A stretch of 64,000 nucleotides of DNA from Toxorhynchites rutilus septentrionalis (taxonomy: Eukaryota > Arthropoda > Insecta > Diptera > Culicidae). Shown piece by piece: positions 12,025 to 63,160 of this stretch (position 1 is its first letter; every line of letters begins with the position of its first letter). Made by a program: the position numbers and the translations under genes. The notes under the pieces were generated by a model that made no database searches, had not been told where the DNA came from, and saw only the letters and a list, made by a program, of their open reading frames with translations. Location of the stretch: NCBI RefSeq assembly GCF_029784135.1, contig NC_073745.1, forward strand, positions 110,977,216-111,041,215, written 5' to 3'.

Positions 12025-13525
12025 CTTTTTCAGAGTCTGTCTGTCTGTCTGATTCTTATGAACTCGGAAACTACTGAACCGATCAACATGAAAATTTGTA
12101 TGTAGGGGTTTTTGGGCCTGGGGAAGGTTTTCGTGATAGTTTAATACCCCTCCCCCCTCTTTAAGGGGGGGCTGCCATACAAATTAAACATAAATGTCTG
12201 CATTACTCGAGAATTACTCAAGAACATGAAACCAAATTAGGCATACGGAGGTTTTAGGGTGCAATAAATGTTTCTTTGGTGGTTAGACTCTCCACCTCCC
12301 TCTCTAAGGGGTGCTGTCATACAAATGAAACACAAATTTCGACATAACACGTGAACTGATCAAGAAAATGGAACCAAATTAGGCATATGGAGATTTGAGG
12401 GTGCAATAAATGATTCTATGATGGTTAGACTCTCCACCCCCCTCTCTAAGGAGGGGCTGCCATACAAATGAAACAAAAATTTCTGCATTATCCGAGAATT
12501 ATTCAAGAAAATGAAACCAAATTAGGCATATTGAGGTTTCAGAGTGCATTAAATGTTTTTATGGTAGTAAGATTTTTCACCATCCTCTCTAAGGGGGGGG
12601 GGGTATTGGACTTCCATACAAATGATACACAAATTTCTGCATAATTTGAGAACTAATTAAGCAAATGGAATCAAATTAAGCATATGTAGGTTCTACGGTG
12701 CAATAAATGTTTTAATGATGGTTAGACTCTCCACCCCCCTCTTTAAGGGAGGGCTGTCATACTAATGAATCACAAATTTCTGCATTACTCGCGAATTAAT
12801 CAAGCAAAGGAAACCAAATTTGCCATATGGAGGTTTTAGGGTGCAATAAATATTTCTATGGTGGTTAGACTCTCCACTCCACTCTCTAAGGGGGGCTGTC
12901 ATACAAATGTAACACAAATTTCTGCATTACTCGAGAATTAACCAATCATACGAAACCAAATTTGGCATGTGGAGGTTGTGGAGGCAATTGAAAATTTTCA
13001 GAGAACTCTGAAGGGAAAAGGGAAAATTCAGAAAATTAAATTCGCATATGTTTGCGCTAGCGAAAATGATCTTTGTTCGAAATTGGAAATGGATTTTAAT
13101 GTGATAAAACGCACTCCTATATCTTCTTCTATCTATACCAAAAAGAAGGATCGTCGGATGTGTTGATAAGAGTAGCACTCGAGTAAGGCATTGTCCGATT
13201 CAGGGCTGTCTTTATTCTATCATATTTTCTGTATAAAACAATTATTCAATGTAACGGAAAAACATGTTATTTACAAGTGGTTGAAAAATCTTGAACGAGA
13301 ATTGTGTCTGAAAATAATCTGATTTTATAATGATGAGTTGTGTTAGAAATACTAGGAATTCTATAGTGGAAGGTAAATTCAACGGAGATGAATAGAAGAT
13401 CAATCAATGAACAGTTCTGCGATTAGACCCATGAACTTGCTCATAGTAAGAAAACGTGAATGTTGGAAGGTAACAAAAAACATTTTTTTTTGAGGACGAA
13501 GTTTGCCGGGTCAGCTAGTTTCAAA
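12025..13525 (+). mobile_element. Helitron-like/HINE-like repeat, copy 3 (longest)
   Basis: It starts with a short (TCTG)n run and a leader reading AACTCGGAAACTACTGAACCG. Six monomers of about 141-153 bp follow, recognisable by CATACAAATGAAACACAAATT at about 12,174, 12,318, 12,459, 12,612, 12,760 and 12,901. Next comes a unique tail (about 13,300-13,500) shared with 1330-1557, and the end GCCGGGTCAGCTAGT. A tetranucleotide leader, internal tandem units and a CTAGT end without TIRs match the layout of Helentron-associated interspersed elements. Assignment is by layout only. Confidence 0.6.
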
Positions 13526-24959: not shown

Positions 24960-25816
24960 AACAATATCTTGATCGACTTGAAAATTGGTATGTTTTTGGG
25001 GCCAGGGAAGGATTTTATATGGGGGGGGGGGTTTGCTATCATTCAAATTAAACATAAATTTCTGCAAAACTCGAGAATAAATCAAGCAAACGAAACCATA
25101 TTTGGCATGTGGAGGTTTAAGGGTGCAATAAATGTTTCTATGGTGGTTCGACACTCCTCCCCCTCTCTAAGGTGGGGGGGGTCTGTCACACAAATCTGCA
25201 AAACTCAAGAACTAATGAAGCAAACGGAACAAAACTTGGCATGTGGAGGTTTTATGGAGCAATATTTTTTTCTATGGTGGCTTGACAGTACTCCCCCCTC
25301 TCTAAAGGGAAGGAATCTGAAAAACTCGAGAGCTATTCAAGCAAATGAAATCAAACTTGAAATATAGAGGTATTAGGGATCGATACACGTTTCTATGGTG
25401 GTTCGATACTACTACCTCCTTTCTAAGGGAGAGCTGCCATATAAATGAAGCACAATTTTCTACATATTTTAAGAACTAATCGAGCAAATGGAACCAAATT
25501 TGGTATATGGATGTTTTAGAGGGGCAATTAATGTTTCTATGGTGGTTCTACATTCCTGCTCCCTCTCTAAAGGAGGAAGGGGGAGAAGGGAGGTTGCATA
25601 ACTCGAGAACTAATCAATCAAATTGAACCACATTTGGCATATGGAAGTTTCAGTGAGTAATAAATGTTTCTATGGTGGTTTGACACACCTACGCCCTCTC
25701 TAAGGGGAAGGGGCTTCCATACAAATGAAATACAAACTTCTGCATAACCGGAGAAAGAATCAATCAAATGGAGCCAAATTTTGGGCAGGACGATGTTTGC
25801 CGGTCAGCTAGTTATT
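24960..25816 (+). mobile_element. Helitron-like/HINE-like repeat, copy 4
   Basis: The leader (GATCGACTTGAAAATTGGTATG, about 24,971) is followed by a G run and about six degenerate monomers of the same unit as at 12.1-13.0 kb. It ends GATGTTTGCCGGTCAGCTAGT before T at about 25,812. Unlike copies 1 and 3 it lacks the ~200-bp unique tail, so the last monomer joins the terminus directly. Confidence 0.58.
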
Positions 25817-28560: not shown

Positions 28561-28669
28561 CAGAGAACCAAATTTTAAATCTAGTTTTAGGAGAAAATTG
28601 AAAATGTTACAAATTTAATTTTTATGCACCAACCTTCGAGAGAGGCGTGTTTAAAGAACTACATAATTA

Positions 28670-29952
28670 AAGGGTGTGTCACATCAAATTGCATCACGGA
28701 AAAAAAGCTGTAGAATTCGCCCAGTAGACCGATCCTTTTGAAAATTTTAGACAGTAAAATAAAAACTATTTAACAACTTTTGGCATTTTCTTTTTATTCA
28801 TACTTCGAGCCCAAGCCCGTATGCTCACACCTTCCTCTTTACCCCGTCCATAAGGCTCTGTACAACGTCAGGTTGTAGTTTTTTTTTGAATAGAAATCCA
28901 TTTTCTCTTGAAGTCCGCCTCCGATTTGACAACTTTTGGGTTCTTCCGGAGGGCCTGCTTCATAATCGCCCAATATTTCTCTATAGGGCGAAGCTCCGGC
29001 GCGTTGGGCGGGTTCATTTCCTTTGGCACGAAGGTGACCCCGTTGGCTTCGTACCACTCCAACACGTCCTTTGAATAGTGGCACGAAGCGAGATCCGGCC
29101 AGAAGATGGTCGGGCCCTCGTGCTGCTTCAATAGTGGTAGTAAGCGCTTCTGTAGGCACTTCTTAAGGTAAACCTGCCCGTTTACCGTGCCGGTCATCAC
29201 GAAGGGGGCGCTCCGCTTTCCACAAGAGCAGATCGCTTGCCACACCATGTACTTTTTGGCAAACTTGGATAGTTTCTGCTTGCGAATCTCCTCCGGAATG
29301 CTGAATTTGTCCTCTGCGGAGAAGAACAACAGGCCCGGCAGCTGACGAAAGTCCGCTTTGACGTAGGTTTCGTCGTCCATTACCAGGCAATGCGGCTTCG
29401 TCAGCATTTCGGTGTACAGCTCCCGGGCTCGCGTCTTCCCCACCATGTTTTGCCTTTCGTCGCGGTTAGGAGCCTTCTGAAGCTTGTATGTACGCAGGCC
29501 CTCCGCTGCTTGGTCCGCTGGACGAATGAACTTGACAAATTCAGCTTATTGGCGACATCCCGGACCGAACTTCTCGGATCACGTCTAAACTGCTTAACTA
29601 CGCGCTTGTGATCTTCATCCATTTTTGTCGTTCTTCACCTTCCGGTCGATGGTTAGGTTCTCGAAGTATCGTTTTAGTACTCTGCTGACCGTGGATTGGA
29701 CGATTCCCAGCATCTTACCGATGTCCCGATGTGACAACTCCGGATTCTCGAAATGAGTGCACAGGATTAATTCACGACGCTCTTTTTCGTTCGACGACAT
29801 TTTTCCAAATTTACGAAAAATTGACAGTGAAGCATGGCCAACGTGATCTATACACTCTTATATGATTATAAGCGAAAGCTGAAGATATAATTCCTAAAAA
29901 TTAAATTTCTACAGCGTTTTTTCCGTGATGCAATTTGATGTGACACACCCTT
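28670..29952 (-). mobile_element. DD37E Tc1/mariner transposon, defective copy
   Basis: The ends AAGGGTGTGTCACATCAAA and its complement are flanked by TA (28,668-28,669; 29,953-29,954). It is about 97% similar by eye to the intact copy at 45,522-46,819, on the opposite strand. It lies inside the mariner fossil, downstream of the central catalytic fragment. The 1283-bp length against 1298 bp reflects small deletions. Confidence 0.92.
28868..29800 (-). pseudogene. DD37E transposase, frameshifted
   Basis: It starts at MSSNEKERRELIL (29,800). A short deletion after the first DNA-binding region (about 29,615-29,625) shifts the frame. A second shift near 29,480 separates the second helix-turn-helix (FRRDPRSSVRDVANKLN) from the catalytic part (from 29,446). 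The final ~30 residues are lost after an extra A in a poly-A run (about 28,885). Catalytic Asp (MDDETY), Asp (WPDLASCHYS) and Glu (PIEKYW) remain, so it is recently dead. Confidence 0.9.
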
Positions 29953-30754
29953 TATATTTAAAATATTTTAGGTTTTCACTATTTTTATGTTTCTTGAGAT
30001 ATCTCTGCACATGCTTAACCAAACTTCAATGTCCATATACCATTGAATGGGTGATTAAAAGCTTGTTTGTAGAGCCGTGGGTCTACGTTTAATTTTGTAA
30101 TTTATGAGAAACAAGCATTTGTAAAACAGGTATTTTGAAGCGTTGTCACGTCACAAAAATAGACCATTTTTTAGTTTATTAGATGAACATAGGTTCAAAC
30201 ATTTTTATACTTGGGATTCTATGAGCAAACAATGAAGGTCAACAGCCCACAAAATTTGGTTTAGATCGGTCCACAAATAGAGGAGTATCAACTGTCTCCA
30301 GAAGTTGTTGTCACGTCACGAAAAGCATACGATCCATTCCAGTGTGACGTAACAACATTTTGACACACTACAAGAACTTTTTTTTTGCGTTTTCATGAAT
30401 AAAGCACACACAATTGAACGATGTTATAGTAAAATTAAGAAAATTTCCAACAAGAATCATCAGTTGGAGAATATTTTATAGTTGGATTGGCTTGTTGTCA
30501 GTCAAATACTTTTGTGACGTGGCAACACCTGACTTTTTGCTGTTTCGGACTGTTGAACATTAAAGATTAATTAAATTAATTACAGTTTCGTATGTTTTGA
30601 ATACAAATGATCTTTCTCCTATGTTTTATCAACAATATATTATATGAACGTAGATATCAAAATATAATATAAGATATAATCTTATTTTATTTGCGGTTTG
30701 CTGATGATAGTATTGAATGCTAAAAAAATATGGAAAACCTATACAATATGGGCT

Positions 30755-37660: not shown

Positions 37661-38633
37661 TAAAAAGACGGGTTGGTAATGTCGGGGACATAACCGGAGT
37701 GACGTAGGACTATACAAAGGGGACAGCTTTTGCTAAATATATTTTTTAAATATATTGTTTTATTTTCTTCTCCTACGTGAATACCTACCTATCTACCTGA
37801 AAAATGGATTAGTTTACTGTTTACTCTTTATGAACATGTTGGGGGTTCTGAAAAGAACCTTTTGTGTTGTGTTTTTGCTTTTTTTTTACAAACTTTCTCA
37901 ATTTTTTCTCACTATCTCATAGTTGATTCTAAATTTTTTGTTCTGAAGGCTTTGTACTTATTAAATGTTCAACGCCGGGCATCTTTTGGCGTATGCACAT
38001 ATCGTACAATCAAAATGATGGCTGTGATAGGGAATGCATAGTTGGTCATCAGCTCATTCACTATCATATATTTCACTATTGAGCACATTACCGTACCTTA
38101 AACTGCGGTTTCGAAGACGAATGAATTGTAAGATTTGTATCTCCGCAAACAAAGTAAATAGAAATGAAAAAGAACTGAGGTTTTGGAGACGAACTCTACG
38201 ATCTGTCGAGAATTAAACGAGCTATAAGCGTTCTGAAAAACCAACAGTAAATTAACACAGGATTAAAGTCCTTTAAAATAAGAACAGAGCAGCAGGAAAT
38301 ACATAGCTCATCATGTTGCTCCTTAGTTATGTGTCTATACAATACAGATGTAACGTCAGTCAATTTTCAACATCAGTTATCAGCCAAAGAAAGCAGTTCT
38401 TGCTACCGAGAAAATTCGTTAATGCCATCCTGCATACAATGTGTTGTAATTTGAAGCCACTTTTAATTCGGAAACCATGCATTTTTTGGTATTGAAAACT
38501 GAATGATCAATTTAAAAGACCCCAAACCAATAAGTTCAAGAACAAGCATAAACAAAATAAATCAGTTTATATGTCACTTTAGCCAACAATCTATATATGT
38601 CACTTTAGAATGCATTGGTATTGTGAAAAACTT

Positions 38634-38945
38634 TTAATAACTCTTCTTTGAAAGGTTTAATGGCCCTGAAAAGCGCCATGTTTTACGGTGGCTGGTTTTG
38701 CCACCAAAACAGTCTGTATAAACAAACTTTTTCCTTCTTCTACCTGCTTCCGTTTTGCGATTGCGTTTGCCACTCGCTGAAACTAGTTGTTGCCACCGAA
38801 CCGAATGTTCTCTGTTCTGTAGGCGGGTTTTCTTATTGTCGTGAGCAGCTTTGCAAGCCAACTCGAGCACTATGGCGGCCGAAATTCTATACCCGCTATT
38901 AGGTATACTGGTGCGATGTGATGTGAAACGATACCATACAACCAC
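38634..38945 (-). pseudogene. Histone H2A-derived fragment, unit 1
   Basis: The minus strand at 38,823-38,882 reads SAAIVLELACKAAHDNKKTR, close to the H2A alpha2-loop region (AAEVLELAGNAARDNKKTR). A Lys/Arg-rich stretch follows (GKRNRKTEAGRRRKKF) that does not match H2A. At 38,662-38,677 there is a histone-type 3' stem-loop. The N-terminal half of H2A is missing, so this is a fragment, not a gene. Confidence 0.7.
38662..38677 (-). promoter_or_regulatory. Histone-like 3' stem-loop, unit 1
   Basis: On the minus strand GGCGCTTTTCAGGGCC is one mismatch from a perfect 6-bp stem with a TTTC loop, the replication-dependent histone mRNA 3' signal. About 11 nt downstream CTTTCAAAGAAGAG resembles the purine-rich histone downstream element. 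Confidence 0.65.
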
Positions 38946-39354
38946 ACTGATTTACGGTTTGAAAGAGAATGAGATATTTTTCAGCGGATCCGCGCATTTT
39001 GTACTTTAGCGGTACACGGTCACAGGAAAGAGACAAATCGGCAGACTCAGCCAAAGGGGCGAGTTCAACGAGACGAACGAAAGAGCGTTAAAAGGCAGCG
39101 ATGGCAAAAAAATACATTCAAAAACTATGTAATTAGCGCTTTGTAAAACATGCATTCGGCAAAACATAAACCTCATACAAATATGTAAATACCAATTTTT
39201 AACAAAGATGAAAAGTGAAAAATCATTATATCACTTGCTATGTAAATAATAGGAAAGACTAAGTGTACTGTTAAATAAATATGAATTTAATGCAAAAAAA
39301 AAATACATTCATTACGATTTGTTCGCTCGTTGGATTCACATGCAGGCTAAAAAG

Positions 39355-39370
39355 GGTCCTTTTCAGGATC
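39355..39370 (+). promoter_or_regulatory. Histone-like 3' stem-loop on the plus strand
   Basis: GGTCCTTTTCAGGATC folds as a full 6-bp stem (one G-T pair) with a TTTC loop. It points opposite to the two other stem-loops, as expected for a convergent histone neighbour. No histone coding remnant was recognised just upstream on the plus strand. Confidence 0.5.
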
Positions 39371-39972
39371 ACAAAATTATCTTCGCTCTAAAGAGTTTAT
39401 TGTTTTGTTATCACTCGATATCCTCATCTTGTTCGACTAAACCTTCCTGTTTAGCGATTGCGTTTGCCACTCGCCACAGCTTTCACAGTTGGAAAATTTC
39501 TTCCCATCCAGCTCGTGACATGTTGTACAGTAAATTATATTTAATGCGACGTGCCGAAGCCCCACTCAGTGTTGCATTGGAGGCGATTTTAACCTGTAAT
39601 TGAACATTTGCGATGACAGTGGTACAGTGTCGACTTTCAATGTGGGGTCATAATTTGGACCCCGAACTCTATGTTTACAAAAATGTCCAACTAAATATGT
39701 CGCATTACATGACCGTCCAATTAGCTAAATGTCGAACTCAATGTAAATTACAGTACTTTCAATCTGGAAACAATTTAAGAATTGGTGAAAATTGAATAAT
39801 CGGGAAAGTCCCCAACCATCAATAAGCTCAGAACAACTGCCAAATTCTCATACTCACCATATCCTGGAAAACGGGATTATGAAAAAATCAATTTGTGTTT
39901 TATTATTATTTTGGATATTGTTTTAGAAAGCATTGAATTGTATTTCGTAAACTCTTTTTTGAAAGGTTTAAT

Positions 39973-39988
39973 GGCCCTGATAAGCGCC
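39973..39988 (-). promoter_or_regulatory. Histone-like 3' stem-loop, unit 3
   Basis: The minus strand reads GGCGCTTATCAGGGCC followed by ATTAAACCTTTCAAAAAAGAG. It is the same arrangement as unit 1 with one loop change, downstream of the H2A-like sequence at 40,190-40,533. Confidence 0.6.
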
Positions 39989-40189
39989 GTGTTTTATGGA
40001 ATGGTTCCAATTTAGAAAACTTAGTACTCGTGGTTTTGAAAAAAACCATTTCGAACGCCCTCGATGCCGCTTTGTTCTGGATTTGCCACCAAAGCAGTTT
40101 GTATAAAAAACAAACTTTTTTCTTCTGCTACCTGCTGCCGTTTTGCGATTGCGTTTGCGTCTGCCTGTAGTTGTCTTGATGTCTACCGA

Positions 40190-40533
40190 ACCAAAGCGCG
40201 AGCAGTTTTGCCAGCCAACTCGATCACTTCGGCAGCCGAAACTCTATAACGGCGGCTAGGTGGACTGGTGCACTGGTAATAACGCGCTCGGCCTAGCTAC
40301 CCTTGCGGAGTAATTGGCGAACAGCACCGAATATTTCTTCACTTTCCAATTTTTATAGTCGCATAAACTTTCTTTGAGTGAAAAAAAATCGCCCCCAATA
40401 TGTTCCCGTAAACGTCATAAGGTGATTGTTTCAATAATCTAGAGCAGACACCTACGGGAAACTGCAGTCCAACACGGTTCGAGCGGGATTTTCCCTTTCC
40501 CTTCACTTTTCCTCCTTTGCCATGTCCAGACAT
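40190..40533 (-). pseudogene. Histone H2A pseudogene, unit 3
   Basis: The minus strand starts [20 protein letters not shown] and VGLQFPVG (40,450-40,533), matching H2A residues 1-28 almost exactly. A ~130-bp divergent stretch with [13 protein letters not shown] follows. Then RQLLRKGS, a stop, AERVITSAPVHLAAVIEF (40,238-40,319), and in another frame SAAEVIELAGKTAR (40,198-40,239), matching the central helix region. The C-terminal part is replaced by unrelated basic sequence. A stop, a frameshift and the insertion rule out a functional histone. Confidence 0.85.
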
Positions 40534-42297
40534 GGCTGCTTGTGTTAGTTTGTTGATGTGATGTGATGCGAAACGATGTGGTGTACGGTTTGGATGAGAA
40601 TGATCGTCTGGCTCGCTCGAGAATTACGCATGTGTGAGACTGCAACCAATGTTTCGTTCATTTTTTTCTTTTTCCTTTTCAATCGTGCTTCATTGTATTT
40701 CGCTGCTGCTGTGGTTGCCCGTTTTGGTCGGTACGATTTGAGGAGCACAAAATGGACCAATCAAAAATGGGCACATATTGCATTTGGACAATGCTTGATA
40801 TTTCACAATTATTCAATTGTTTATCTCAAGAAGAAAAAAAATGTTATTCGTTATGATAGATGCGTAGATATATTTCCTATCAATTGATGCAAACACCTTT
40901 ACGATCTATTGAGAAATGCTCGAGTTATAAGCGTTCCAAATCTTGCATTTTTTCCTACTTGTTCAGTGCCTAGATTTTCATTTCACCCCCTATATCTTCC
41001 GGTTAGACGTAGTCCTACGTCAAAAGTAGATGCGTCTGGTTCTAAGGACACGGACGGGAGCTTGACGTAGGGTTGTGATTGTTTTTAGTAACTGCATTTG
41101 AATTATTTTTTTTTCATTTTCGGGTAGGATGAGGTAGAATCCGAAACAACATTCTAACATGAACACGAGGAACTCAACACTATTTGATTTTTTTATCGAC
41201 GTTCAAGAATGTGTGCAGAATACAATTGAAGGTATTACCACCTTATTCTTCTATTCATTTTATTATTTTCATTATTATGGGCCTGATCACGAACGTCACT
41301 TCACGGTGAAAACGAAGTGAATTGTATACAACGTTATTACGGCTGCCACCGTGTGTGTATATTTAATCCGGAAGAGTTCATCCGTCGTGACAACTTTGAT
41401 GAACTCGGTGTTATTATGAAAACCACGATATTTGTCACTTGTGTTTTAGGTGGTGAAAGCTAGTCACGCGGAATGGAGTAAGTTTAATTTCGTATTTATT
41501 TAGCTTTTTTGCTACCATCTTGAATCTTGTCTTGCTTTTTAGGAAAGAAAAGATAAACAAACAGCAATTTATCCGTCTGGTGGCATTTTTGGAACGAAAC
41601 TCTGACGTATCCAAAGGACATAAATTTGTTTACTTGTATTCGGTAAATGCGCTAATTAAGGACTAAAAATGTAGCTCCCATAGGCCCATTGAAGCATGGC
41701 GAGAGTACTACTTCCGATTGTCTTGAATGAATAGAATTTTTTTGTTTCTATTCTTAGGATTAGACTAACAGAGAGTTGCAACACCATAAAATGGCAATGG
41801 AGGCCACTCAGTAATCTTCTATTAGAAAGAATGATCATTACTCAATCAATCGATTCATTATTATGATTATGTATAATATTGATTTGTTGGTATTTTAAGT
41901 ATAAAATAATAACTGTAAAGTTTTTCCAACATTGCAGAACAGGTTTTTGAAATTCAAACATTCACAATTGGTGGACAATACCCGAATCAGGTCGGTAGTT
42001 GTAACGAATAAGGCCATTGTTTTTTATTTCTTTTTACGTAATAGATATTTTCAATGATATTGTTTTGAAGACATTCTTTGAGTGAAAGAGTATTAAAAAA
42101 GTGATAATAAGTTTCAAACAAGAAAAAAATGAGTCAGTGTAAAGTATTCACAAGATACTGTTTTTAAATTCTTCTCTATTTATTTTTCCATAATTTTGAT
42201 ATCCGTCTAAAGTAAATTTGAATCACTTTCTGCTATTGGCAAATTTCCTGAAACCCATCAGATATTTTAAATGAAGATTATGTTTCTGACCGACGAC

Positions 42298-45521: not shown

Positions 45522-46819
45522 AAGGGTGTGTCACATCAAATTGCATCACGGAAAAAACGCTGTAGAAATTTAATTTTTAGGAATTATATCTTCAGCTTTC
45601 GCTTATAATCAGATAAGAGTGTATAGATCACGTTGGCCATGCTTCACTGTCAATTTTTCGTAAATTTGGAAAAATGTCGTCGAACGAAAAAGAGCGTCGT
45701 GAATTAATCCTGTGCACTCATTTCGAGAATCCGGAGTTGTCACATCGGGACATCGGTAAGATGCTGGGAATCGTCCAATCCACGGTCAGCAGAGTACTAA
45801 AACGATACTTCGAGAACCTAACCATCGATCGGAAGGTGAAGAACGGCAAAAATGGATGCTCCGTCAGTGAAAAAGATCACAAGTGCGTAGTTAAGCAGTT
45901 TAGACGTGATCCGAGAAGTTCGGTCCGGGATGTCGCCAATAAGCTGAATTTGTCAAGTTCATTCGTCCAGCGGACCAAGCAGCGGGAGGGCCTGCGTACA
46001 TACAAGGTTCAGAAGGCTCCTAACCGCGACGAAAGGCAAAACATGGTGGGGAAGACGCGAGCCCGGAAGCTGTACACCGAAATGCTGACGAAGCCGCATT
46101 GCCTGGTAATGGACGACGAAACCTACGTCAAAGCGGACTTTCGTCAGCTGCCGGGCCTGTTGTTCTTCTCCGCAGAGGACAAATTCAGCGTTCCGGAGGA
46201 GATTCGCAAGCAGAAACTATCCAAGTTTGCCAAAAAGTACATGGTGTGGCGAGCGATCTGTTCTTGCGGAAAGCGGAGCGCCCCCTTCGTGATGACCGGC
46301 ACGGTAAACGGGCAGGTTTACCTTAAGGAGTGCCTACAGAAGCGCTTACTACCACTATTGAAGCAGCACGAGGGCCCGACCATCTTCTGGCCGGATCTCG
46401 CTTCGTGCCACTATTCAAAGGGCGTGTTAGAGTGGTACGAAGCCAACGGGGTCACCTTCGTGCCAAAGGAAATGAACCCGCCCAACGCGCCGGAGCTTTG
46501 CCCAATAGAGAAATATTGGGCGATTATGAAGCAGGCCCTCCGGAAGAACCCAAAAGTTGTCAAATCGGAGGCGGACTTCAAGAGAAAATGGATTTCTGTT
46601 CAAAAAAAACTACAACCTGACGTTGTACAGAACCTTATGGACGGGGTAAAGAGGAAGGTGCGAGCATACGGGCTTGGGCTCGAAGTATGAATAAAAAGAA
46701 AATGCCAAAAGTTGTTTAATAGTTTTTATTTTACTGTCTAAAATTTTCAAAAGGATCGGTCTACTGGACGAATTTCTACAGCGTTTTTTCCGTGATGCAA
46801 TTTGATGTGACACACCCTT
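45522..46819 (+). mobile_element. DD37E Tc1/mariner transposon, intact
   Basis: The TIRs AAGGGTGTGTCACATCAAA ... and their complement extend about 50 bp, with TA on each side (45,520-45,521; 46,820-46,821). The single ORF is uninterrupted. A 152-bp leader separates the TIR from the ATG. It was inserted into A2. Mosquito elements with the D37E spacing have been described (ITmD37E group); membership here rests on the measured spacing and general layout. Confidence 0.95.
45674..46690 (+). CDS. DD37E transposase (Tc1/mariner superfamily)
   Basis: A 338-residue transposase that would bind the TIRs and cut and paste the element at TA sites in the nucleus. Residues ~1-50 form a first helix-turn-helix (HRDIGKMLGIVQSTVSRVLKR) and ~65-105 a second (SSVRDVANKLNLSSSFVQR). 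The catalytic Asp is at ~147 (MDDETY), Asp ~241 (WPDLASCHYS) and Glu ~279 (PIEKYW). Exactly 37 residues separate the last two, so it is DD37E. The first ATG is kept because the MSSNEKERRE start also begins the sister copy at 29,800. The length is normal for the superfamily and no stop or frameshift is present, so this is the best candidate in the window for a functional protein. Its sister at 28,670-29,952 is disabled. Confidence 0.95.
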   Translation: MSSNEKERRELILCTHFENPELSHRDIGKMLGIVQSTVSRVLKRYFENLTIDRKVKNGKNGCSVSEKDHKCVVKQFRRDPRSSVRDVANKLNLSSSFVQRTKQREGLRTYKVQKAPNRDERQNMVGKTRARKLYTEMLTKPHCLVMDDETYVKADFRQLPGLLFFSAEDKFSVPEEIRKQKLSKFAKKYMVWRAICSCGKRSAPFVMTGTVNGQVYLKECLQKRLLPLLKQHEGPTIFWPDLASCHYSKGVLEWYEANGVTFVPKEMNPPNAPELCPIEKYWAIMKQALRKNPKVVKSEADFKRKWISVQKKLQPDVVQNLMDGVKRKVRAYGLGLEV

Positions 46820-51905: not shown

Positions 51906-52313
51906 TGTTTGTACTCAGTGTCGCTTTATAGCAAAAATCAAATACCTTAGTGTAGACTTCGGAAGACTAGTGAAGAATTTTTCAGTCATTCGTTTAACAC
52001 TCGCTTATCGCTCGATCATCATTCTTATCACCGTTCAGTTATACCGTCAGCCACCGAACGAGACAGAAGCGAATTCTACGCTCTGTCCGGAATTAAATAA
52101 AGTTTTGTTACAAGTTATAAGTTTACCGCCAATTATTTCGAAGTGGTTTGATCACCGTCATATCACCGATTGATTGTGTTGTGTCGAGTTAAATCCCGCT
52201 GCTGTGTACTCCCAGTTTTGATCTGTTCATCGCTGGCAACATCGCTCGCTTCAAGCAGTTTTCATATTCCACCATTGGACGAGGTGATAAGGTGAGCCCG
52301 ACCTGCCCCAACA
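51906..52313 (+). repeat. BEL/Pao 5' LTR
   Basis: 408 bp, TG...CA ends. An AAATAAAG polyadenylation-like signal lies near 52,095. Nearly identical to 58,564-58,971. Confidence 0.95.
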
Positions 52314-52319
52314 TATTTC

Positions 52320-52337
52320 TGGTGCCGTGACCAGGAT
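52320..52337 (+). other. Primer binding site
   Basis: TGGTGCCGTGACCAGGAT starts 7 bp after the LTR. TGG plus the following bases would pair with the CCA end of a host tRNA; the tRNA species was not determined. Confidence 0.75.
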
Positions 52338-53143
52338 TGGGTATTGCCGCTTTTTTCGCCATCATCCAAGTGAACAACGGTTCAATAGCGACTATTGTTT
52401 TCCACGTTACAATTGGCCGACGCTGTCGCCATTGTGATGCGACACAATCGAAAGACAATCTATTGAGACCACACCATCATTGTGAACAAACCAACGATTG
52501 AACAATTGACCAATTGTTCAACCCGGCATTGTTAAATGCATGCTGACATTTTCTGGTGTTACCGAATTTTAATTATTCAAGTCCTAATTACTCGAGCATC
52601 AGGTAAAGTACCTCTCCAATCTGCGCAAGAAGCCACACAGGTGCTTTTAGATTTGCTTTCCGATATTTTGCATGTTATTTCCCCATCTCATCGGTGCTGA
52701 GTAACAAGCATCAAGTGATTATGTGAACCAGAAACCACTCCACACAACGTAGGTCCGATCCGATTCCAGCCGCATGGTACCGTAAAGGTGGCGGCCGTTG
52801 CTCTATGCTGAAACTCAACCGGCGTAGGAAGAGTTTTCCACGATTGCTACCAGTCGTTGATCAACGAGTAGTTGATTATTTCCAATTCCCGCCAACTTTC
52901 CGTCGTTTACCAGAAGTGAATAGAAGTCACCCGGGCAGAAGAAAAATAATTCACCATCCCACGAGGCAAGTTGCTCATCTGCGTTCCTGGGTTCCCGTTT
53001 TGTAATTCATACAAGGCATTTCAAGCCTTGGTCAAGGTTAGTACATGTCCAAGTAAATTATTTGTGTCAGTGCGGGGCTACCTGGTCTTGTATTTCAGCA
53101 GGCTTTCTTCCTTCCTGTGTGGTCGGCGTTCTATTGATCTACA

Positions 53144-56100
53144 ATGGCCGACGCTCGATCGAAGGAACAAATGGTGACGCGGAGAATGACCCTGCTGGCG
53201 TCGCTGTCACGTGCGGAGCAATTCATCGAACAGTACGTCACTGAACGGGATGGGCTCGAGGTGCAGATCCGGCTAGAGAATCTGGATATACTATGGGCAT
53301 CATTGGAGGAAGTGCAGACTGCCCTAGAGGATTTGGAGGATACCAACGAAGGTAAAATGTTAAATCTCCAATACCGCGCTTCTATGGAGCCTAGGCTGTT
53401 CAGAGTAAAGGCGATGCTTAAGGCTAAACTACCAACTCCTGTTATTCCTCACGAAAACCGCCCCCTTGAAAACCCCCCTCGTTCGTCGTCCGCTTTGTCC
53501 GGTTTGAGGTTGCCAACAATTTCGCTTCCGGATTTTGACGGAGATTACAAGCAGTGGCTTACCTTCCACGATACGTTTCTCGCATTGATCCACGAGAACG
53601 TAGAACTTCCACCGATCCAGAAGTTCCATTACCTCCGTGCAGCGGTGAAGGATGAAGCAGCGCAAATCATCGAAACGATTGCCATCAGTGCGGCCAACTA
53701 TCCACTGGCTCGGCAAACATTGGTCGCTCGTTATTCCAACAAGTATCTATTGAAAAAGCGACATTTACAAGACCTGTTGGAAATTCCCAGGATGAAAAAG
53801 GAGACCGCTGCCGCGTTGCATTCCGCGGTAGACGATTTTCAGAGGCACGTGAAAATCCTAGAACAATTGGGTGAGCCAACTGCACATTGGAGTACCCTGC
53901 TGGAGCATCTATTGTGCATACGATTGCATGATGACACAATCCGAGCATGGGAGGATCATGCAGAGACTGTCGGAAACCAAACGTACAAATGCTTGGTAGA
54001 ATTTTTGGAAAAACGCATCCGTGTTCTTGAGAGTGTTTCGGTCAACCATAATAATATAGCTCACCAAACCACGCCCGCTGCAGGTGTCAACAGTACTCAT
54101 CATCGAAGACCCTCGTTACCGTTTAAAATGTCTACTCACGCCGTCACGGAAAGTTCAGCCCCCAAATGCCATGCATGTGATCAGCATCATCCCCTAGTAA
54201 GATGTTCGAAATTCGAGAAGATGACGCTAGCTGAGCGTTTACGTACAGTGAACTCAAAACGACTCTGCCTAAACTGCTTTCGCCATGATCACTTCGCCCG
54301 TGATTGCTCCTTTTCCTACAGTTGTCGGGTGTGCAAGAAAAAGCACCATTCCATGTTGCACCCTGGGTACATTGAGAATTCCAACAGATTTGGTACTGAA
54401 TCGCCATCCAACAGCGCGATTTATTCGGGTGGTCCGCCACAACAATCATCCAACGTTCAATCCAGAATTTCATTTCAAGAAGTTTCTAACGCATCGAAGT
54501 TACAGACAGTGAAATGCAGCAGCACGATTTACAATCCCCACCCAACCGTGTTCATGCTAACAGTGGTGCTGCGCATCGTAGATGTTTACGGGAAGGAGCA
54601 CTTCGCCCGTGCTCTGCTGGACAGTGCCTCTCAGCCGAACCTAATGTCCGATCGTTTGGCTCAACTGCTCCGTTTGCGTCGACAGAAGGTGAATGTTCTC
54701 GTTCATGGGATTGGTGAGAAGCCTGAACATGCTACGGAGTCTGTGACGACTAAAATCCTCTCCCGCAAAAATGAATTCGCTAAAGATGTTAGCTTTTTAG
54801 TTCTCAAGCGAATGATGTCAAAACTGCCAGCTGAAGATGTACTTGTTGAAAGATGGAATCTACCCGGCGACGTGTTCCTAGCTGATCCTGGATTCAATCG
54901 GTCGAGCGAGATCGATCTCGTAATAGGAACTCAATTTTTCTTCGATTGTTTCCCCACAGCGTCTAAAATTCAACTCTCAGGTAATCTTCCCATAATGGTT
55001 GACAGCGTGTTTGGCTGGATATTTGCTGGAAATTGTCATCTAGTTCCATCTGCCAGTGATGCCGTTAGCTGCACGACCGTCGCCCAGTCGTTAGCCCCGC
55101 TGGAAGAATGCATGGAAAGATTTTGGAAGATAGAAGAACTCCCTGTCAGACGTGATATGTCACCCGAGGAAAAGGCTTGCGAAGAGCTTTATAGGTCAAC
55201 CACATCCCGAAACGATGATGGGAGATATGTTGTTCGACTACCGAAACAGCCCAACTTCGCTGAGATGGTTGGTGAATCGAAGTCCATCACATTACACCGA
55301 TTTCACCTGCTCGAGCGAAGACTTTCGAACGATACTGATCTGAAAGAGAGCTACGATAAGTTTATGGCTGATTACGTAGCTTTAGGACATATGCGTATTG
55401 TACACTCTGACTATACTCCTGATTCACACGTGCACTACTTGCCACATCACCCTGTGCTGAAAGAGGCCAGCACAACAACAAAAACCAGAGTGGTTTTCGA
55501 TGGCTCCAGCAAAACGTCATCCGGTTATTCGCTCAACCAATCCCTATGTATTGGACCCGTTGTACAAGACGACCTCTTGACCTTAATTATCCGCTTCCGA
55601 AAATACCCGATAGCCATGATTGCGGATATTGAGAAAATGTACCGCCAGGTACAGGTACATTCTTCCGATGCTCCTCTCCAACGAATATTATGGAGATTTA
55701 GTCCTTCTGATCCATTGCTCACTTATGAGCTCCAGACCGTCACCTATGGACTAGTTCCTTCATCTTTTCTCGCCACTAGAACGCTACAGCAGCTTGCTGA
55801 AGATGATGGTGACGTTTATCCTCTGGGAGCCGCTGCATTGAGAAAGTCGTTTTACGTTGATGACTATATAGGTGGAGCAGACTCGATTCCTGAAGCTATC
55901 GAGTTGCGCAACGAGTTGACCAAACTGCTGGCAAGAGGTGGTTTCCCGCTGCGAAAGTGGACGTCAAATAAGTTAGAAGTTCTCCAAGGTTTGTCCTCCG
56001 ACGAAATTGGTACCCAGTCAACCCACAAGTTTGACCCAGATGAGACCGTGAAGACCCTCGGAATTTTGTGGGAGCCTGCATCGGATCAGTTTTGCTTCGA

Positions 56101-56179
56101 TCTACAAATGCACTGCGTCACGACGTACGTGACAAAACGGGTAATCATTCCGCTGTGTCACAGCTGTTTGATCCGCTAG
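53144..56179 (+). CDS. BEL/Pao gag-pol, first part (Gag, protease, RT)
   Basis: 1011 residues from ATG 53,144. Residues ~120-270 match the BEL Gag region (LPDFDGDYKQWLTFHDTF, then a helical segment). Cysteine knuckles lie at ~341 (CHACDQHH) and ~373 (CLNCFRHDHFARDC). A retropepsin-like site is at ~490 (ALLDSASQPNLM, DSA in place of the usual DTG/DSG). Reverse transcriptase follows: TRVVFDGSSKTS, MIADIEKMYRQV (~825) and FYVDDYIGG (~903), the catalytic YVDD. The last ~20 residues are out of frame: the true coding frame shifts near 56,145, shortly before the stop at 56,177. The ~830-bp leader after the LTR is non-coding. The product would form the capsid and copy RNA into DNA in the cytoplasm. 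Confidence 0.93.
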   Translation: MADARSKEQMVTRRMTLLASLSRAEQFIEQYVTERDGLEVQIRLENLDILWASLEEVQTALEDLEDTNEGKMLNLQYRASMEPRLFRVKAMLKAKLPTPVIPHENRPLENPPRSSSALSGLRLPTISLPDFDGDYKQWLTFHDTFLALIHENVELPPIQKFHYLRAAVKDEAAQIIETIAISAANYPLARQTLVARYSNKYLLKKRHLQDLLEIPRMKKETAAALHSAVDDFQRHVKILEQLGEPTAHWSTLLEHLLCIRLHDDTIRAWEDHAETVGNQTYKCLVEFLEKRIRVLESVSVNHNNIAHQTTPAAGVNSTHHRRPSLPFKMSTHAVTESSAPKCHACDQHHPLVRCSKFEKMTLAERLRTVNSKRLCLNCFRHDHFARDCSFSYSCRVCKKKHHSMLHPGYIENSNRFGTESPSNSAIYSGGPPQQSSNVQSRISFQEVSNASKLQTVKCSSTIYNPHPTVFMLTVVLRIVDVYGKEHFARALLDSASQPNLMSDRLAQLLRLRRQKVNVLVHGIGEKPEHATESVTTKILSRKNEFAKDVSFLVLKRMMSKLPAEDVLVERWNLPGDVFLADPGFNRSSEIDLVIGTQFFFDCFPTASKIQLSGNLPIMVDSVFGWIFAGNCHLVPSASDAVSCTTVAQSLAPLEECMERFWKIEELPVRRDMSPEEKACEELYRSTTSRNDDGRYVVRLPKQPNFAEMVGESKSITLHRFHLLERRLSNDTDLKESYDKFMADYVALGHMRIVHSDYTPDSHVHYLPHHPVLKEASTTTKTRVVFDGSSKTSSGYSLNQSLCIGPVVQDDLLTLIIRFRKYPIAMIADIEKMYRQVQVHSSDAPLQRILWRFSPSDPLLTYELQTVTYGLVPSSFLATRTLQQLAEDDGDVYPLGAAALRKSFYVDDYIGGADSIPEAIELRNELTKLLARGGFPLRKWTSNKLEVLQGLSSDEIGTQSTHKFDPDETVKTLGILWEPASDQFCFDLQMHCVTTYVTKRVIIPLCHSCLIR

Positions 56180-58443
56180 GACTAATAGCGCCCGTTGTTG
56201 TGAGAGGGAAAATGATGATTCAGGAACTGTGGCTAGCATCATACTCCTGGGACGACGAGGTTCAGGAACCCATAAAAAAGAAGTGGGAAGAGTTCTACGA
56301 CGAATTACCAAGTTTGTCCGAGTTTCGTATTGACCGATTCGCGTTTGCTCCGAATTCCACCATTCAGTTGCACAGTTTTGCGGACTCCTCCGAGGCTGCC
56401 TACGGTGCCTGCACTTACGCCCGTACTGTGGACTCCGAAGACAATGTGCGCATCCAACTGTTAGCAGCCAAATCTCGAGTAGCGCCCTTAAAGCGACTAA
56501 CCCTACCGCGATTGGAGCTTTGTGCAGCTTTGATCGCCACACAGCTGCATTCTCGCATCATAGAAGCACTGCAAATGGGAACCGTCGAATCCTTCTACTG
56601 GTCGGACTCCACCGTGGTGCTACAGTGGCTTAGAACTCCTCCAAGTTTGCTTAAGACATTCGTGGCCAACCGAGTCTCGGAGATACAAACCTCCACGCAC
56701 GGATCGCATTGGCGGCATGTATCTGGAATCCAGAACCCGGCGGATCTTGTATCCAGAGGGATGCATGTGAAGGACCTCCTGACCAGCTCGCTTTGGAAGA
56801 ACGGTCCTGAATGGTTAACCTGGCCTGAAGCGGCTTGGCCGACACCGAAAATTACGATCTCACCCGAAGTAGAACATGAATGCAAGCGAATGATGACTGT
56901 TGTAGCCACTACTGCACCATTTTACAATCCAATTTTTACATTATACCGCAACTTTTCACGTCTGGTAAGAATAATTGTCTACTGCCGATGTTTTATCCAT
57001 AATCTGCGCGACAAGGTTCGAACGCAACCCGTACACTTAACAGGTTTCGAGCCAAGAATGTCGCTTTCCGTTGAGCAAATCTCCCAAACTAAAGCACAGC
57101 TTGTTAGACTGGCTCAAGCCGACTGCTTTCAAGACGAAATTCGTGACCTTCGTCAAGGACGACCTTTGAAGAAGAGCTCTCCGATAAGGCTGCTGAATCC
57201 ATTCGTCGATACAGAGGGTACCTTGAGGGTTGGGGGGCGGTTGAAACTTTCTGAACAGCCATATTTATTCAAACATCCAGCCTTGCTCCCTAGCTTTCAT
57301 CCCCTCGCCAAGCTGATAGCCAAATCCTTCCATTACAAACTGGTTCATGGTGGCGGTCACGTCACCCTATCGAACATGCGTGAGGAGTATTGGCCATTAC
57401 AAGGACGAAGACTAGTACGCAGCGTCATCAGAAACTGCTACCAATGCGCTCGAGCCAATCCCGTTCCAGTCCAGCAACAAATTGGTCAGCTGCCTGCCCA
57501 GCGGATCACTGCCAGCAAGCCGTTTGCTGTTACCGGTGTGGATTACGCCGGTCCAGTTTATTTAAAGCCGATCCACAAACGAGCTCAACCGACGAAGGCA
57601 TACATCTGTCTATTTGTCAGCTTCACGACGAAGGCAGTGCATCTAGAGCTTGCCGGTGACCTCTCAACAGTAGCCTTCCTCAAGGCATTCCGCCGTTTTG
57701 TATCTCGCCGAGGTCGACCAGCACACCTGCATTCCGACAATGGGAAGAACTTCATTGGGGCCAAAAATGAGCTGCACCAAATCTACCAAATGCTCCACAG
57801 CCAGCAGGAGATGGAAAAAATCCAGAAAGTATGTGCCGAAGAAGAAATTGTTTGGCACTTGAACCCACCGAAGGCGCCTCATTTCGGTGGACTTTGGGAA
57901 GCGGCAGTCAAGGTTGCCAAAACCCACCTGTACCGTCACCTCGGGAACACCTTGCTGTCGTTTGAGGACCTGTCTACAGTTTTAGTAGAAATCGAAGCTG
58001 CGATGAACTCGCGGCCACTTGTTCCGATGACCGAAGACCCGAACGACTTCTCCGTTCTGACGCCAGCACATTTCATTATCGGATCGACAATGCATTCCCT
58101 GCCCAGTCCCAACGTTTGCGACTTCCCATGGTCGCGGCTTGACCACTATCACCAGCTGCAGCAGTTATATCAGCAGTTCTGGCACCATTGGAGAACCGAG
58201 TACCTCCAGGAACTCCAAAAGGACACCAGAAGCTGCCAACCAAACGCCGCAATTACGCCTGGCAGGCTAGTGGTGGTCATCGATGAATTCCAGCATCCAG
58301 TTCGTTGGCCACTCGCCCGGATTGAGGCTGTCCATCCAGGCGCAGATGGACTTGTTCGCGTGGTGACGCTACGCACGCCGAGAGGAACCATCAAGCGCCC
58401 AGTCACAAAGATCTGCATATTGCCAACAGACCAAGAAGATTAA
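56068..58443 (+). CDS. BEL/Pao pol, second part (RNase H, integrase)
   Basis: This frame overlaps the first by 112 bp, but true homology starts at SQLFDPLGLIAP (about 56,159), the conserved end of the BEL RT region. RNase H has HSFADSSEAAYGAC (~102) and SDSTVVLQWL (~180). The integrase has an HHCC zinc-binding region (HYKLVHGGGH ~422, CYQCAR ~457) and a DDE core: DYAGPV (~492), HSDNGKNF (~555) and HFGGLWEAAVK (Glu ~605). A C-terminal module typical of BEL/Pao integrases follows, ending at 58,443. There is no native start here. It would be translated as one polyprotein with the first part in an undamaged relative. One indel separates the two. Confidence 0.92.
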   Translation: MGACIGSVLLRSTNALRHDVRDKTGNHSAVSQLFDPLGLIAPVVVRGKMMIQELWLASYSWDDEVQEPIKKKWEEFYDELPSLSEFRIDRFAFAPNSTIQLHSFADSSEAAYGACTYARTVDSEDNVRIQLLAAKSRVAPLKRLTLPRLELCAALIATQLHSRIIEALQMGTVESFYWSDSTVVLQWLRTPPSLLKTFVANRVSEIQTSTHGSHWRHVSGIQNPADLVSRGMHVKDLLTSSLWKNGPEWLTWPEAAWPTPKITISPEVEHECKRMMTVVATTAPFYNPIFTLYRNFSRLVRIIVYCRCFIHNLRDKVRTQPVHLTGFEPRMSLSVEQISQTKAQLVRLAQADCFQDEIRDLRQGRPLKKSSPIRLLNPFVDTEGTLRVGGRLKLSEQPYLFKHPALLPSFHPLAKLIAKSFHYKLVHGGGHVTLSNMREEYWPLQGRRLVRSVIRNCYQCARANPVPVQQQIGQLPAQRITASKPFAVTGVDYAGPVYLKPIHKRAQPTKAYICLFVSFTTKAVHLELAGDLSTVAFLKAFRRFVSRRGRPAHLHSDNGKNFIGAKNELHQIYQMLHSQQEMEKIQKVCAEEEIVWHLNPPKAPHFGGLWEAAVKVAKTHLYRHLGNTLLSFEDLSTVLVEIEAAMNSRPLVPMTEDPNDFSVLTPAHFIIGSTMHSLPSPNVCDFPWSRLDHYHQLQQLYQQFWHHWRTEYLQELQKDTRSCQPNAAITPGRLVVVIDEFQHPVRWPLARIEAVHPGADGLVRVVTLRTPRGTIKRPVTKICILPTDQED

Positions 58444-58549
58444 CATTCGGAAATTGTTTTGTGAAACAAATTTTTCTTTTTCTTTAACTATTTGAAATAT
58501 TGTATCAACTTAGTAAATCTTTTAAATTTATTTGAAATCCTTGAATTTC

Positions 58550-58563
58550 AAAGGTGGCGGCGA
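58550..58563 (+). other. Polypurine tract
   Basis: AAAGGTGGCGGCGA directly precedes the 3' LTR. It is purine-rich apart from single T and C interruptions. A similar AAAGGTGGCGGC occurs internally at 52,785. Confidence 0.65.
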
Positions 58564-58971
58564 TGTTTGTACTCAGTGTCGCTTTATAGCAAAAATCAAA
58601 TACCTTAGTGTAGACTTCGGAAGACTAGTGAAGAATTTTTCAGTCATTCGTTTAACACTCGCTTATCGCTCGATCATCATTCTTATCACCGTTCAGTTAT
58701 ACCGTCAGCCACCGAACGAGACAGAAGCGAATTCTACGCTCTGTCCGGAATTAAATAAAGTTTTGTTACAAGTTATAAGTTTCCCGCCAATTATTTCGAA
58801 GTGGTTTGATCACCGTCATATCACCGATTGATTGTGTTGTGTCGAGTTAAATCCCGCTGCTGTGTACTCCCAGTTTTGATCTGTTCATCGCTGGCAACAT
58901 CGCTCGCTTCAAGCAGTTTTCATATTCCACCATTGGACGAGGTGATAAGGTGAGCCCGACCTGCCCCAACA
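58564..58971 (+). repeat. BEL/Pao 3' LTR
   Basis: 408 bp, same ends as the 5' LTR, followed by the CCATC duplication. Confidence 0.95.
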
Positions 58972-62154: not shown

Positions 62155-63160
62155 TAGGGTGGCAATGAATGTATGGCAAAAAAATCATCATCGAATTTCA
62201 AAAACCCACCATGTACAATGTGTTTCATGGCCCAAAAAAAAAGACCTGTACGACGTTTCAGCTCAATCGGACATGATTTAGGGGTGCCTCAAAGCGCTCA
62301 AAGTTTTGATTATTTGATTCTCGAAAATATTCCAAGGGAAGGAAATTTGGAAAATCGATTCTTTTTTTCGATGCCAAATGACTTCAAAATGTATGAAACG
62401 TCGAGATCTGGTATTATCTCAAAAAAACAATTTTTGGCCGGGCTTAGCCTGAGAATGTCATGAAGGCATGGAAAACAAAAAAAATTATCGAATTTAAAGA
62501 ACCGACATGTACATTTTGTTTATAGGCCCAAAAAAAATTCCTGTGCAAAGTTTCAGCTCAATCGGACATGATTTAGGGGTGCCTCAAAGCACTCAATGTT
62601 TTGATTTTTTGGCCACTTGGGCTAAGTTCCAAAAAGTCGATTTTTTGCCAAAAATTTTTTTTCGAGGTAACACCAGATCTCGTTTTATGCATTTCATTTG
62701 ACATAGAAAACAAAATTTCGATTTTCCAAATTTCCTTAATTCCCCCCTTGGAAGATTTTAACGGATAAAAAATCAAAACATTGAGCGCTTTGAGGCACCC
62801 CTAAATCTTGTCCGATCGAGCTGAAATTTTGCACAGGTCATTTTTTTGGGCCAATAAAAAAATTGTACATGGTCGGTTTTTGAAATTCGATAAGGTCCAA
62901 AAGGTCGATTTTCAGCCAAAATTTTTTTTTCGAGATAACACTAGATCTCGACGTTTCATGCATTTTTAAGTAATTTGGTATCGAATAAATAATATCAATT
63001 TCGATTTCGAAAAAAATCAAAACTTTGAGCGCTTTAAGGCACCCCTAAATCATATCCGATTGAGCTGAAACTTTGCACAGGTAATTTTTTTGGGACCAAT
63101 GAAAAAATGTACATGGTCGGTTTTTGAAATTTGACATGACCATTTTCGCTGCCACCCTAA
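62155..63160. mobile_element. Quasi-palindromic TIR element, TTAGGGTGGCA ends
   Basis: The left end TTAGGGTGGCAATGA is mirrored by the right end GCCACCCTAA. A ~120-bp unit (AGCTCAATCGGACATGATTT, then AGGGGTGCCTCAAAGCGCTC) occurs twice direct (about 62,250 and 62,550) and twice inverted (about 62,800 and 63,030). There is no convincing coding capacity. The AGGGTGGC terminus is also found in family E. Confidence 0.7.

Follow-up and report, generated by a model that had tools for sequence, protein, structure and literature searches.

Within a 64,000-nt stretch of the genome of the mosquito Toxorhynchites rutilus (hereafter the window), pieces of a histone H2A gene lie beside histone-type 3′ stem-loops, which raises the question of how they came to stand there and whether such 3′ signals serve any purpose today. 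The original prediction had placed H2A-derived coding sequence on the minus strand, and translated matches bear this out for amino acids 1–39 (40533–40417; E = 1.4e-14), 28–57 (40328–40239; E = 1.6e-6), and 59–78 (38879–38820; E = 0.001), as does a frameshift-aware alignment with scores of 182 and 88, where none of the 300 protein shuffles made for each exceeded 50. Together, these methods delimit a pseudogene of amino acids 1–71 with a stop and a frameshift (40198–40533, minus strand) and a pseudogene piece of amino acids 47–78 (38820–38914, minus strand). They belong to two recognizable paralogous units, unit 3 (39742–40603) and unit 1 (38445–38972), respectively, which are identical in 374 of 443 ungapped columns and have a frameshift, substitutions, and a stem-loop mismatch in common. 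The third of the three predicted ~0.7-kb units shrank to a 32-bp match at 39443–39474. A functional replication-dependent H2A gene was rejected, as the open reading frame is not intact. A Pfam search with the read-through H2A did not recognize it, a search with an H2A composite returned one beetle H2A, and a search with the truncated H2A reading frame returned nothing useful. The two H2A placements came out far ahead among 110 tests of histones against regions; in next place, H4 aligned with the N-terminal tail of that H2A, and all other placements were close to the shuffle maximum. Two plus-strand H2B candidates (39027–39155 and 40210–40254) were weak, with 8 and 2 of 300 shuffles reaching their scores, and were excluded from the case. 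We note as a lead only an H4-like 19-amino-acid match in a separate element, C2 (45177–45121, minus strand; reached by 1 of 300 shuffles, in one of the 110 tests).

The stem-loops proposed to follow the H2A pieces were recovered as Rfam Histone3 matches on the minus strand. One belongs to unit 1 (38662–38677; match 38682–38637, 23.1 bits) and is followed by the downstream element CAAAGAAGAG (38650–38641), the other belongs to unit 3 (39973–39988; match 39993–39948, 20.3 bits) and is followed by CAAAAAAGAG (39961–39952), and both carry the same single G-G mismatch. Two more had been overlooked: a second unit 3 stem-loop without a downstream element (40032–40047, minus strand; match 40052–40007, 24.5 bits) and the best of the window, SL0 (37844–37859, minus strand; Rfam RF00032 match 37864–37820, 34.8 bits), the sole one above Rfam's gathering score, with the downstream element AAAGAG read from the sequence at 37824–37829 on the same strand. 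The stem-loop said to point the other way does have a match (39355–39370, plus strand; match 39350–39396), but a weak one (15.3 bits, E = 3.2), and is present, partly altered, in 10 of 11 fetched copies of the surrounding repeat. Histone3 matches at E ≤ 10 in the 64 kb number four, every one within this repeat. The stem-loop region appears more alike between units 1 and 3 (111 of 120 versus 263 of 323 columns identical; Fisher p = 0.005), a comparison whose region was picked post hoc and which we left out of the case. A retroposed histone mRNA inserted in a repeat would agree with an H2A without introns, but we regard this origin as very improbable, because the downstream element, which lies beyond the cleavage site as described in PMC5636114 (between stem-loop and downstream element), remains after units 1 and 3, indicating that DNA and not mature mRNA was copied.

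Ends common to the fetched copies, with T-runs outside them, delimit the repeat at 37667–41021 (~3.35 kb; sense on the minus strand, 5′ end at 41021 and 3′ end at 37667; genome-wide query 37671–41021). Its 5′ terminus is a palindromic subTIR, GACGTAGGACTACGTC (41006–41021, minus strand), which is preceded by TTTT and folds (3 of 200 shuffles are equally good); likewise, all 9 fetched copies whose 5′ end could be read have a 16-bp palindrome directly after a T-run. An inverted copy, TAGTCCTACGTC (37701–37712, minus strand), lies ~34 bp inside the 3′ terminus. The 16-mer GACGTAGTCCTACGTC has four exact occurrences in the window and none in 100 shuffles even when up to two mismatches are allowed. 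These asymmetric ends contradict the TIR-bounded element of the original prediction. Insertion occurred into T-runs without target site duplication: in the fetched copies, each of 9 5′ junctions has two or more Ts and each of 10 3′ junctions three or more, and a comparison of the copy L028, which lies within the T-run belonging to a B-type element, with element B1 of the window (one paralogous empty site) reveals no duplicated bases other than Ts. A cut-and-paste TIR transposon was therefore rejected, given the inverted copy inside the 3′ end and the lack of duplication beyond Ts in this one empty-site comparison.

The 5′ layout is that of Helentrons and their non-autonomous derivatives (HINEs), which are recognized by a palindromic subTIR of 12–15 bp located 2–4 nt from the 5′ terminus; the 16 bp of the window element are one base above this published range. 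The second subTIR, expected 38–60 bp from the end, is 38 bp from the T-run in B1 and B2 and 34 bp in the window element, a distance to which the Helentron paper would add a few bp, as it counts the Ts within the element (PMC4067079). For the 3′ palindrome (8–35 bp expected), a 9-bp stem 8–9 nt from the end is present in the window element, B1, and B2 and does not form in B3, C1, and C2. In the window element, this hairpin, GGTTATGTC-CCC-GACATTACC (37675–37695, minus strand), has 82% of cells paired versus 33–39% when slid, yet 156 of 500 shuffles reach 82% and single-strand folding is weak (z = −1.1). A1 supplies the autonomous partner, encoding Rep/helicase and a C-terminal endonuclease; it has the same two ends as the window element, four H2A pseudogene units, and an open frame of 1674 codons with PF14214, PIF1, and Exo_endo_phos, all above cut-offs. 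We take the window element, with little doubt, for a degenerate HINE of T. rutilus, a non-autonomous Helentron derived from the autonomous family A1.

The 37.7–41.0 kb sequence forms a dispersed family in the T. rutilus genome. We scored the best 40 of 8098 first-look candidate places (window included), so the counts reflect the best-matching end of the family: among the other 39, the H2A N-terminal stretch is covered by 26 and the stem-loop at 37844–37859 by 36. The fetched copies start with GACGTAGGACTACGTC after a T-run and end with ACCCGTC before a T-run, and their flanks differ. Two extra stretches mark the window copy, one at 39121–39298 (sister copies are without it, their matches 1–1450 and ~1629 onward adjoining) and one that splits H2A at 40322–40447 (other copies match to ~2651 and resume at ~2778). 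The unit 3 stop is common to 11 of 12 copies, the window copy included, so H2A was dead before its spread. The proposed capture and amplification of a histone fragment by a DNA transposon is thus supported, with a Helentron in place of a TIR cut-and-paste vehicle and with an H2A already dead when amplified. The window has five further elements with B- or C-type ends, and tblastn detected no H2A in any of them; H2A is therefore not constant behind such ends, which speaks against the strict form of the test proposed with the original prediction. In the window family, a dead histone gene has clearly been amplified genome-wide together with its 3′ signals. An ordinary decayed histone cluster lying by chance among transposons, which the original prediction had named as its own undoing, would accommodate several stem-loops, one of them on the opposite strand, but is hardly credible: it is refuted by dispersed copies with common ends, the two H2A placements alone stand out far among the 110 tests, and the units share their frameshift, substitutions, and stem-loop mismatch. 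The real host clusters are also of different make-up, two of them (L010 and L012) with complete H2A/H2B and H3/H4 pairs and a third (L011) with the same pairs and H2A matched to amino acid 75 only.

We then turn to the autonomous elements, in which the signal adjoins a gene of the transposon itself. A1 carries a tandem dead H2A array in its 5′ part, followed by the Rep/PIF1-helicase/endonuclease gene and then by a histone stem-loop and AAAGAG. A2 carries H3 pseudogenes and A3 an H4 fragment; their Reps are 55–71% identical to that of A1, the A2 Exo_endo_phos match (24.2 bits) is just under Pfam's cut-off of 24.5, and the Rep frame of A3 is interrupted, by introns or decay. Recent copies are found for both A1 (two identical over 1038 of 1039 bp) and A2 (two over 1037 of 1038). 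In all three families, the Rep 3′ UTR contains a fully paired histone stem-loop followed by AAAGAG on the strand of the ORF, that is, a paired 6-bp stem with a 4-nt loop and a purine-rich element after it. These stem-loops score 40.5 bits in A1 (E = 7.9e-9), 22.9 in A2 (E = 0.03; under Rfam's gathering score), and 38.1 in A3 (E = 3.9e-8), compared to 41.3, 36.1, 35.3, and 30.0 bits for the host H3, H2B, H4, and H2A genes. The host's replication-dependent histone genes (L010–L012) show the same arrangement of stem-loop and A/G-rich downstream element, but after a histone ORF, whereas in the Helentrons it follows a Rep/helicase ORF. To our knowledge, animal genes with a histone-type 3′ end are almost exclusively histone genes.

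In the Rep stem-loops of the three families and those of the four host genes together, all 42 cells are paired, with a covariation score of 0.46 (0 of 500 shuffles reach either), three pairs are changed on both sides (reached by 52 of 500), and the number of pair types is reached by 340 of 500, in tests where kinship alone can beat shuffles without structure. The three families of one genome need not be independent. A fully paired Rep stem-loop is kept in 7 of 8 Helentron copies with a readable Rep 3′ region, one pair being broken in the A2-like copy L047; L044, L048, L051, and L052 (Rep 3′ end not shown) and L050 (no A1-like Rep) were not counted. A single control, the canonical Helitron L036 without a detected endonuclease domain, has no stem-loop. 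Rep and pattern searches of viral contigs gave nothing useful, and a pattern search of genome contigs gave one bacterial match, taken as chance. SL0 and the stem-loop in the A1 Rep 3′ UTR are homologous (the 3′ 215 bp of the window element are 96% identical to A1); SL0 derives from the Rep 3′ UTR that the autonomous elements themselves carry.

Taken together, we consider it quite probable that the window HINE comes from an A1-type Helentron whose Rep gene is followed by a histone-type 3′ signal. We regard the chances as evenly balanced for the processing step, in which SLBP and U7 snRNP would act on the Rep mRNA at the predicted stem-loop signal and yield a non-polyadenylated, replication-coupled, histone-type mRNA. 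Derivatives arisen by deletion, the window copy among them, would spread the signal because it adjoins the 3′ end required for transposition. The main competing explanation, a substantial one to which we nevertheless give somewhat less than an even chance, is that all stem-loops, the Rep-adjacent ones included, are passive remnants of captured histone genes in a gene-fragment-carrying Helentron like that of Culex, with Rep polyadenylated normally. Captured H2A, H3, and H4 pieces do sit in the same elements, the unit 1 and 3 stem-loops are decayed passengers, and such passengers show that these motifs can ride along without function; polyadenylation of the A1 Rep is possible, since AATAAA occurs 362 and 570 nt beyond the ORF end, and the broken Rep stem-loop of L047 also fits. 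Passive carriage accords less well with A1 and A3 Rep-proximal stem-loops that score like the host's own, with full pairing in all three Rep stem-loops despite the divergence of the Reps while those of units 1 and 3 share a mismatch, and with A2 and A3 3′ UTRs in which neither AATAAA nor ATTAAA was found from the stop to the element end.

A mosquito Helentron with captured histone sequence has already been published: Helentron-Cq-32A of Culex quinquefasciatus contains broken histone gene fragments (H4 superfamily, H15) in eight copies and resembles the present elements in its palindromic subTIRs and TT insertion and, less surely, in its 3′ stem-loop (PMC4067079, 2014). Here, H2A (A1), H3 (A2), and an H4 piece (A3) occur in three families, a derivative family occupies at least 40 dispersed places, and a histone stem-loop with downstream element lies in the Rep 3′ UTR, of which the accessible text of that report makes no mention. 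Like the DINE-1/HINE elements described there, the window element is non-autonomous, has ends common with an autonomous Helentron, and contains internal repeats; it differs in that it bears histone 3′ signals and sequence captured from histone genes (PMC4067079). A hAT transposon of the fungus Pseudocercospora fijiensis similarly captured and amplified a host histone gene (H3), the copies being inactivated, there by RIP, and the accessible text mentions no 3′ processing signal on the transposase gene (PMC6710886). In the literature searched, we found no report of a Helentron whose Rep gene has a histone-type 3′ end.

As a broader proposal from these sequence patterns, whose probability we place a shade below even, the Rep of mosquito Helentrons may be run as an honorary histone gene: cleaved at the stem-loop by SLBP and U7 snRNP and non-polyadenylated, its mRNA would be available mainly in S phase, so that rolling-circle transposition could draw on the replication machinery. 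Repeated histone capture (H2A, H3, and H4) would then be a trace of how these Helentrons gained or keep histone-type control, and their non-autonomous derivatives would seed histone 3′ ends across the genome. If true, a eukaryotic transposon ties its own expression to S phase via 3′ end processing and not via its promoter, which would allow the coupling of rolling-circle elements to host replication to be tested directly and could explain the recurrence of histone genes as passengers in mosquito Helentrons.

The H2A coding sequence that the original prediction placed on the minus strand is a genuine match. It lies within element H (window 37667–41021, minus-strand sense), a non-autonomous Helentron (HINE), in which units 1 and 3 consist, as had been described, of an H2A piece followed by a histone-type stem-loop and a purine-rich element. 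Unit 3 occupies 40198–40533 on the minus strand, unit 1 retains amino acids 47–78, and CAAAGAAGAG or CAAAAAAGAG stands 11 nt beyond the stem-loop of each. All four matches of the whole window to the Rfam model Histone3 (RF00032; E up to 10) fall inside H, and AAGAG occurs 5–30 nt downstream of four of its five stem-loops, as against 335 of 18,276 sampled window positions. The best of these stem-loops (37844–37859; 34.8 bits) had been overlooked. Unit 1 has the same frameshift as unit 3 (behind the residues aligned with E-Y), the same three substitutions (M to I, Y to F, N to K) and, in its stem-loop, the same G-G mismatch; the two appear to have arisen by duplication of a single dead H2A rather than by independent decay.

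Searching the host assembly (902.6 Mb, 514 contigs) with H as query yielded 125 matches at 40 places, window included (the best 40 of 8098 candidates). At the 39 non-window places of this best 40, the H2A N-terminal stretch was covered at 26 and stem-loop 37844–37859 at 36. Eleven copies, selected for near-full matches, were fetched (L025–L035), and their flanks differ. At least two Ts precede GACGTAGGACTACGTCTAACCGG in all nine with a readable 5' end, and ACCCGTC (once ACCCGTT) is followed by at least three Ts in all ten readable at the 3' terminus. One copy (L028) is inserted in a B-type element, at its T-run, and window element B1 represents the uninterrupted form of that element; another (L033) lies immediately after a C-type 3' end. 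The stop in H2A (RKGS-stop or RKGC-stop) is present in 11 of 12 copies, counting that of the window, with L029 lacking alignment there; the gene was therefore already dead when the family spread. The 126 bases splitting H2A in the window copy are absent from the fetched copies that span the site.

H is one of six related window elements, together with B1 (about 10277–11389), B2, B3, C1 and element C2, that have similar ends in sense orientation: a T-run and GACGTAGGACTACGTC or a variant at the start, then, at 30–38 bp from the 3' end, its inverted copy, followed by a short palindrome and a further T-run. Element C2 has a damaged 5' terminus. In the sequence immediately interior to the 5' palindrome, H is similar to B1, B2 and B3, with 1, 0 and 4 of 300 shuffles, respectively, reaching the observed score; no resemblance to C1 was found there (36 of 300). 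H2A was not found in the five relatives by tblastn; frameshift-aware tests covered parts of them. As described in the cited passages of PMC4067079, Helentrons and HINEs carry palindromic subTIRs 5'-terminally and 38–60 bp from the 3' terminus plus a 3' palindrome, insert at T-rich targets and leave the target site unmodified; the anatomy of H and its relatives appears close to that description. The weakest point of the resemblance is the 3' palindrome, which forms in H and B1 and has identical letters in B2; in B3 it is cut, and it fails to fold in C1 and element C2. By count it is 82% paired, yet 156 of 500 shuffles get there.

B2 is interrupted by a BEL/Pao retrotransposon (51906–58971; LTRs identical at 407 of 408 positions, 5-bp duplication CCATC, Peptidase_A17 and integrase domains), and element C2 contains a faint H4-like match (45177–45121). 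At 11103–11140 and at homologous sites in B2 and B3, TATATAAG precedes TCAGTT by about 30 bp on the sense strand, an arrangement that we take to be a putative TATA-Inr promoter. The window also holds a Tc1/mariner-type transposase (45674–46690 and 28664–29957; 338-aa open frame, 94–95% identical to two Toxorhynchites rutilus septentrionalis proteins), with a second element copy at 97% DNA identity, two related satellite arrays, one of 143-bp units (12152–12977 and 25026–25781), and a one-kb imperfect palindrome (62181–63146) 72% identical to its own reverse complement.

Helitron_like_N gave 132 matches in the host (150 of 1313 candidates scored), and three autonomous-type Helentron families, A1, A2 and A3, were distinguished. 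A1 (contig C2, 6592962 to about 6607835) shares its 5' end with H and contains the last 215 bp of H at 96% identity. Its four H2A units, spaced at about 1.32 kb, have a stop identical to that in the H copies, and its open frame of 1674 codons encodes Rep, PIF1 and Exo_endo_phos domains. The ends of A2 (contig C2:320560500 onward; L040 and L037) are B-type. This single autonomous Helentron holds two H3 pseudogenes pointing opposite ways, and its frame of 1564 codons includes Rep and PIF1 domains together with an Exo_endo_phos match slightly under the cut-off; A1 and A2 are 67% identical across 1549 aligned positions. In A3 (contig C3:105130600 onward, and L046) the 3' end is of C type and the sequence covered stops short of the 5' end; an H4 fragment (aa 80–98, E 1.6e-6; L049, 1313–1369) lies upstream of Rep, whose pieces have broken frames and are 55–71% identical to A1 and A2.

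From 150 listed Histone-family matches, twelve that are partial and dispersed (L013–L024) were chosen by eye, and all proved to be H3 pieces. By raw end score, a B-like 3' end lies downstream in H3 sense at nine of them (25 or more out of 48, against 12–19 at the remaining three), a 5' end upstream at five (at least 17 of 19), and both at four. Six have a same-strand stem-loop 47–85 nt past the H3 match (E 0.003–0.78). These loci, most in B-like Helentrons, appear to represent a second histone-carrying derivative family.

In all three autonomous families, a histone stem-loop followed by AAAGAG lies past the stop of Rep, the Rep/helicase/endonuclease gene, on the same strand and 128–238 bp before the 3' terminus. 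It is found 475 nt past the ORF end in A1 (40.5 bits), 291 nt past it in A2 (22.9 bits) and about 220 nt past the Rep stop in A3 (38.1 bits); the four genuine stem-loops of one host histone cluster score 30.0, 35.3, 36.1 and 41.3 bits. When these seven sequences were aligned, all 42 stem cells paired, which none of 500 shuffles matched, and sliding the alignment lowered pairing to 9.5–57%. Three of six stem pairs vary on both sides, a number reached by 52 of 500 shuffles. The stem-loop is fully paired in seven of the eight Helentron copies with a readable Rep 3' end (L037, L038, L041, L042, L043, L045, L046 and L047), one pair being broken in L047. Across about 1.04 kb that includes the stem-loop, identity is 99.9% between two A1 copies and likewise between two A2 copies, so the elements bearing it were, by this measure, copied recently. 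In A2 and A3, neither AATAAA nor ATTAAA was found from the Rep stop to the terminus; A1 contains AATAAA twice there. One canonical Helitron, L036, gave no endonuclease domain match and showed no stem-loop in the 9.9 kb fetched. Window stem-loop 37844–37859 is an inherited form of the A1 Rep signal. In L041, another GGCGCTTTTCAGGGCC stem-loop (sense position 1090) lies within 60 bp past the 3' end of the A1 copy, as if Helentron pieces had been joined.

The Rep stem-loop could alternatively be a passive leftover. That explanation must account for a signal kept in three diverged families, and the decay of the captured coding sequences and of the unit 1 and 3 stem-loops contrasts with the kept Rep signal. 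Histone capture by Helentrons is already known; in the open-access literature searched, we found no report of a transposon Rep gene with a histone-type 3' end. As described in the cited part of PMC5636114, SLBP and the U7 snRNP machinery cut histone pre-mRNA at a site flanked by the stem-loop and the purine-rich element, and no polyadenylation follows. The simplest reading, a step that we infer, is histone-type processing of the Rep message: the Rep mRNA of A1, A2 and A3 Helentrons would be processed as histone pre-mRNA and would hence follow the histone mRNA cycle.
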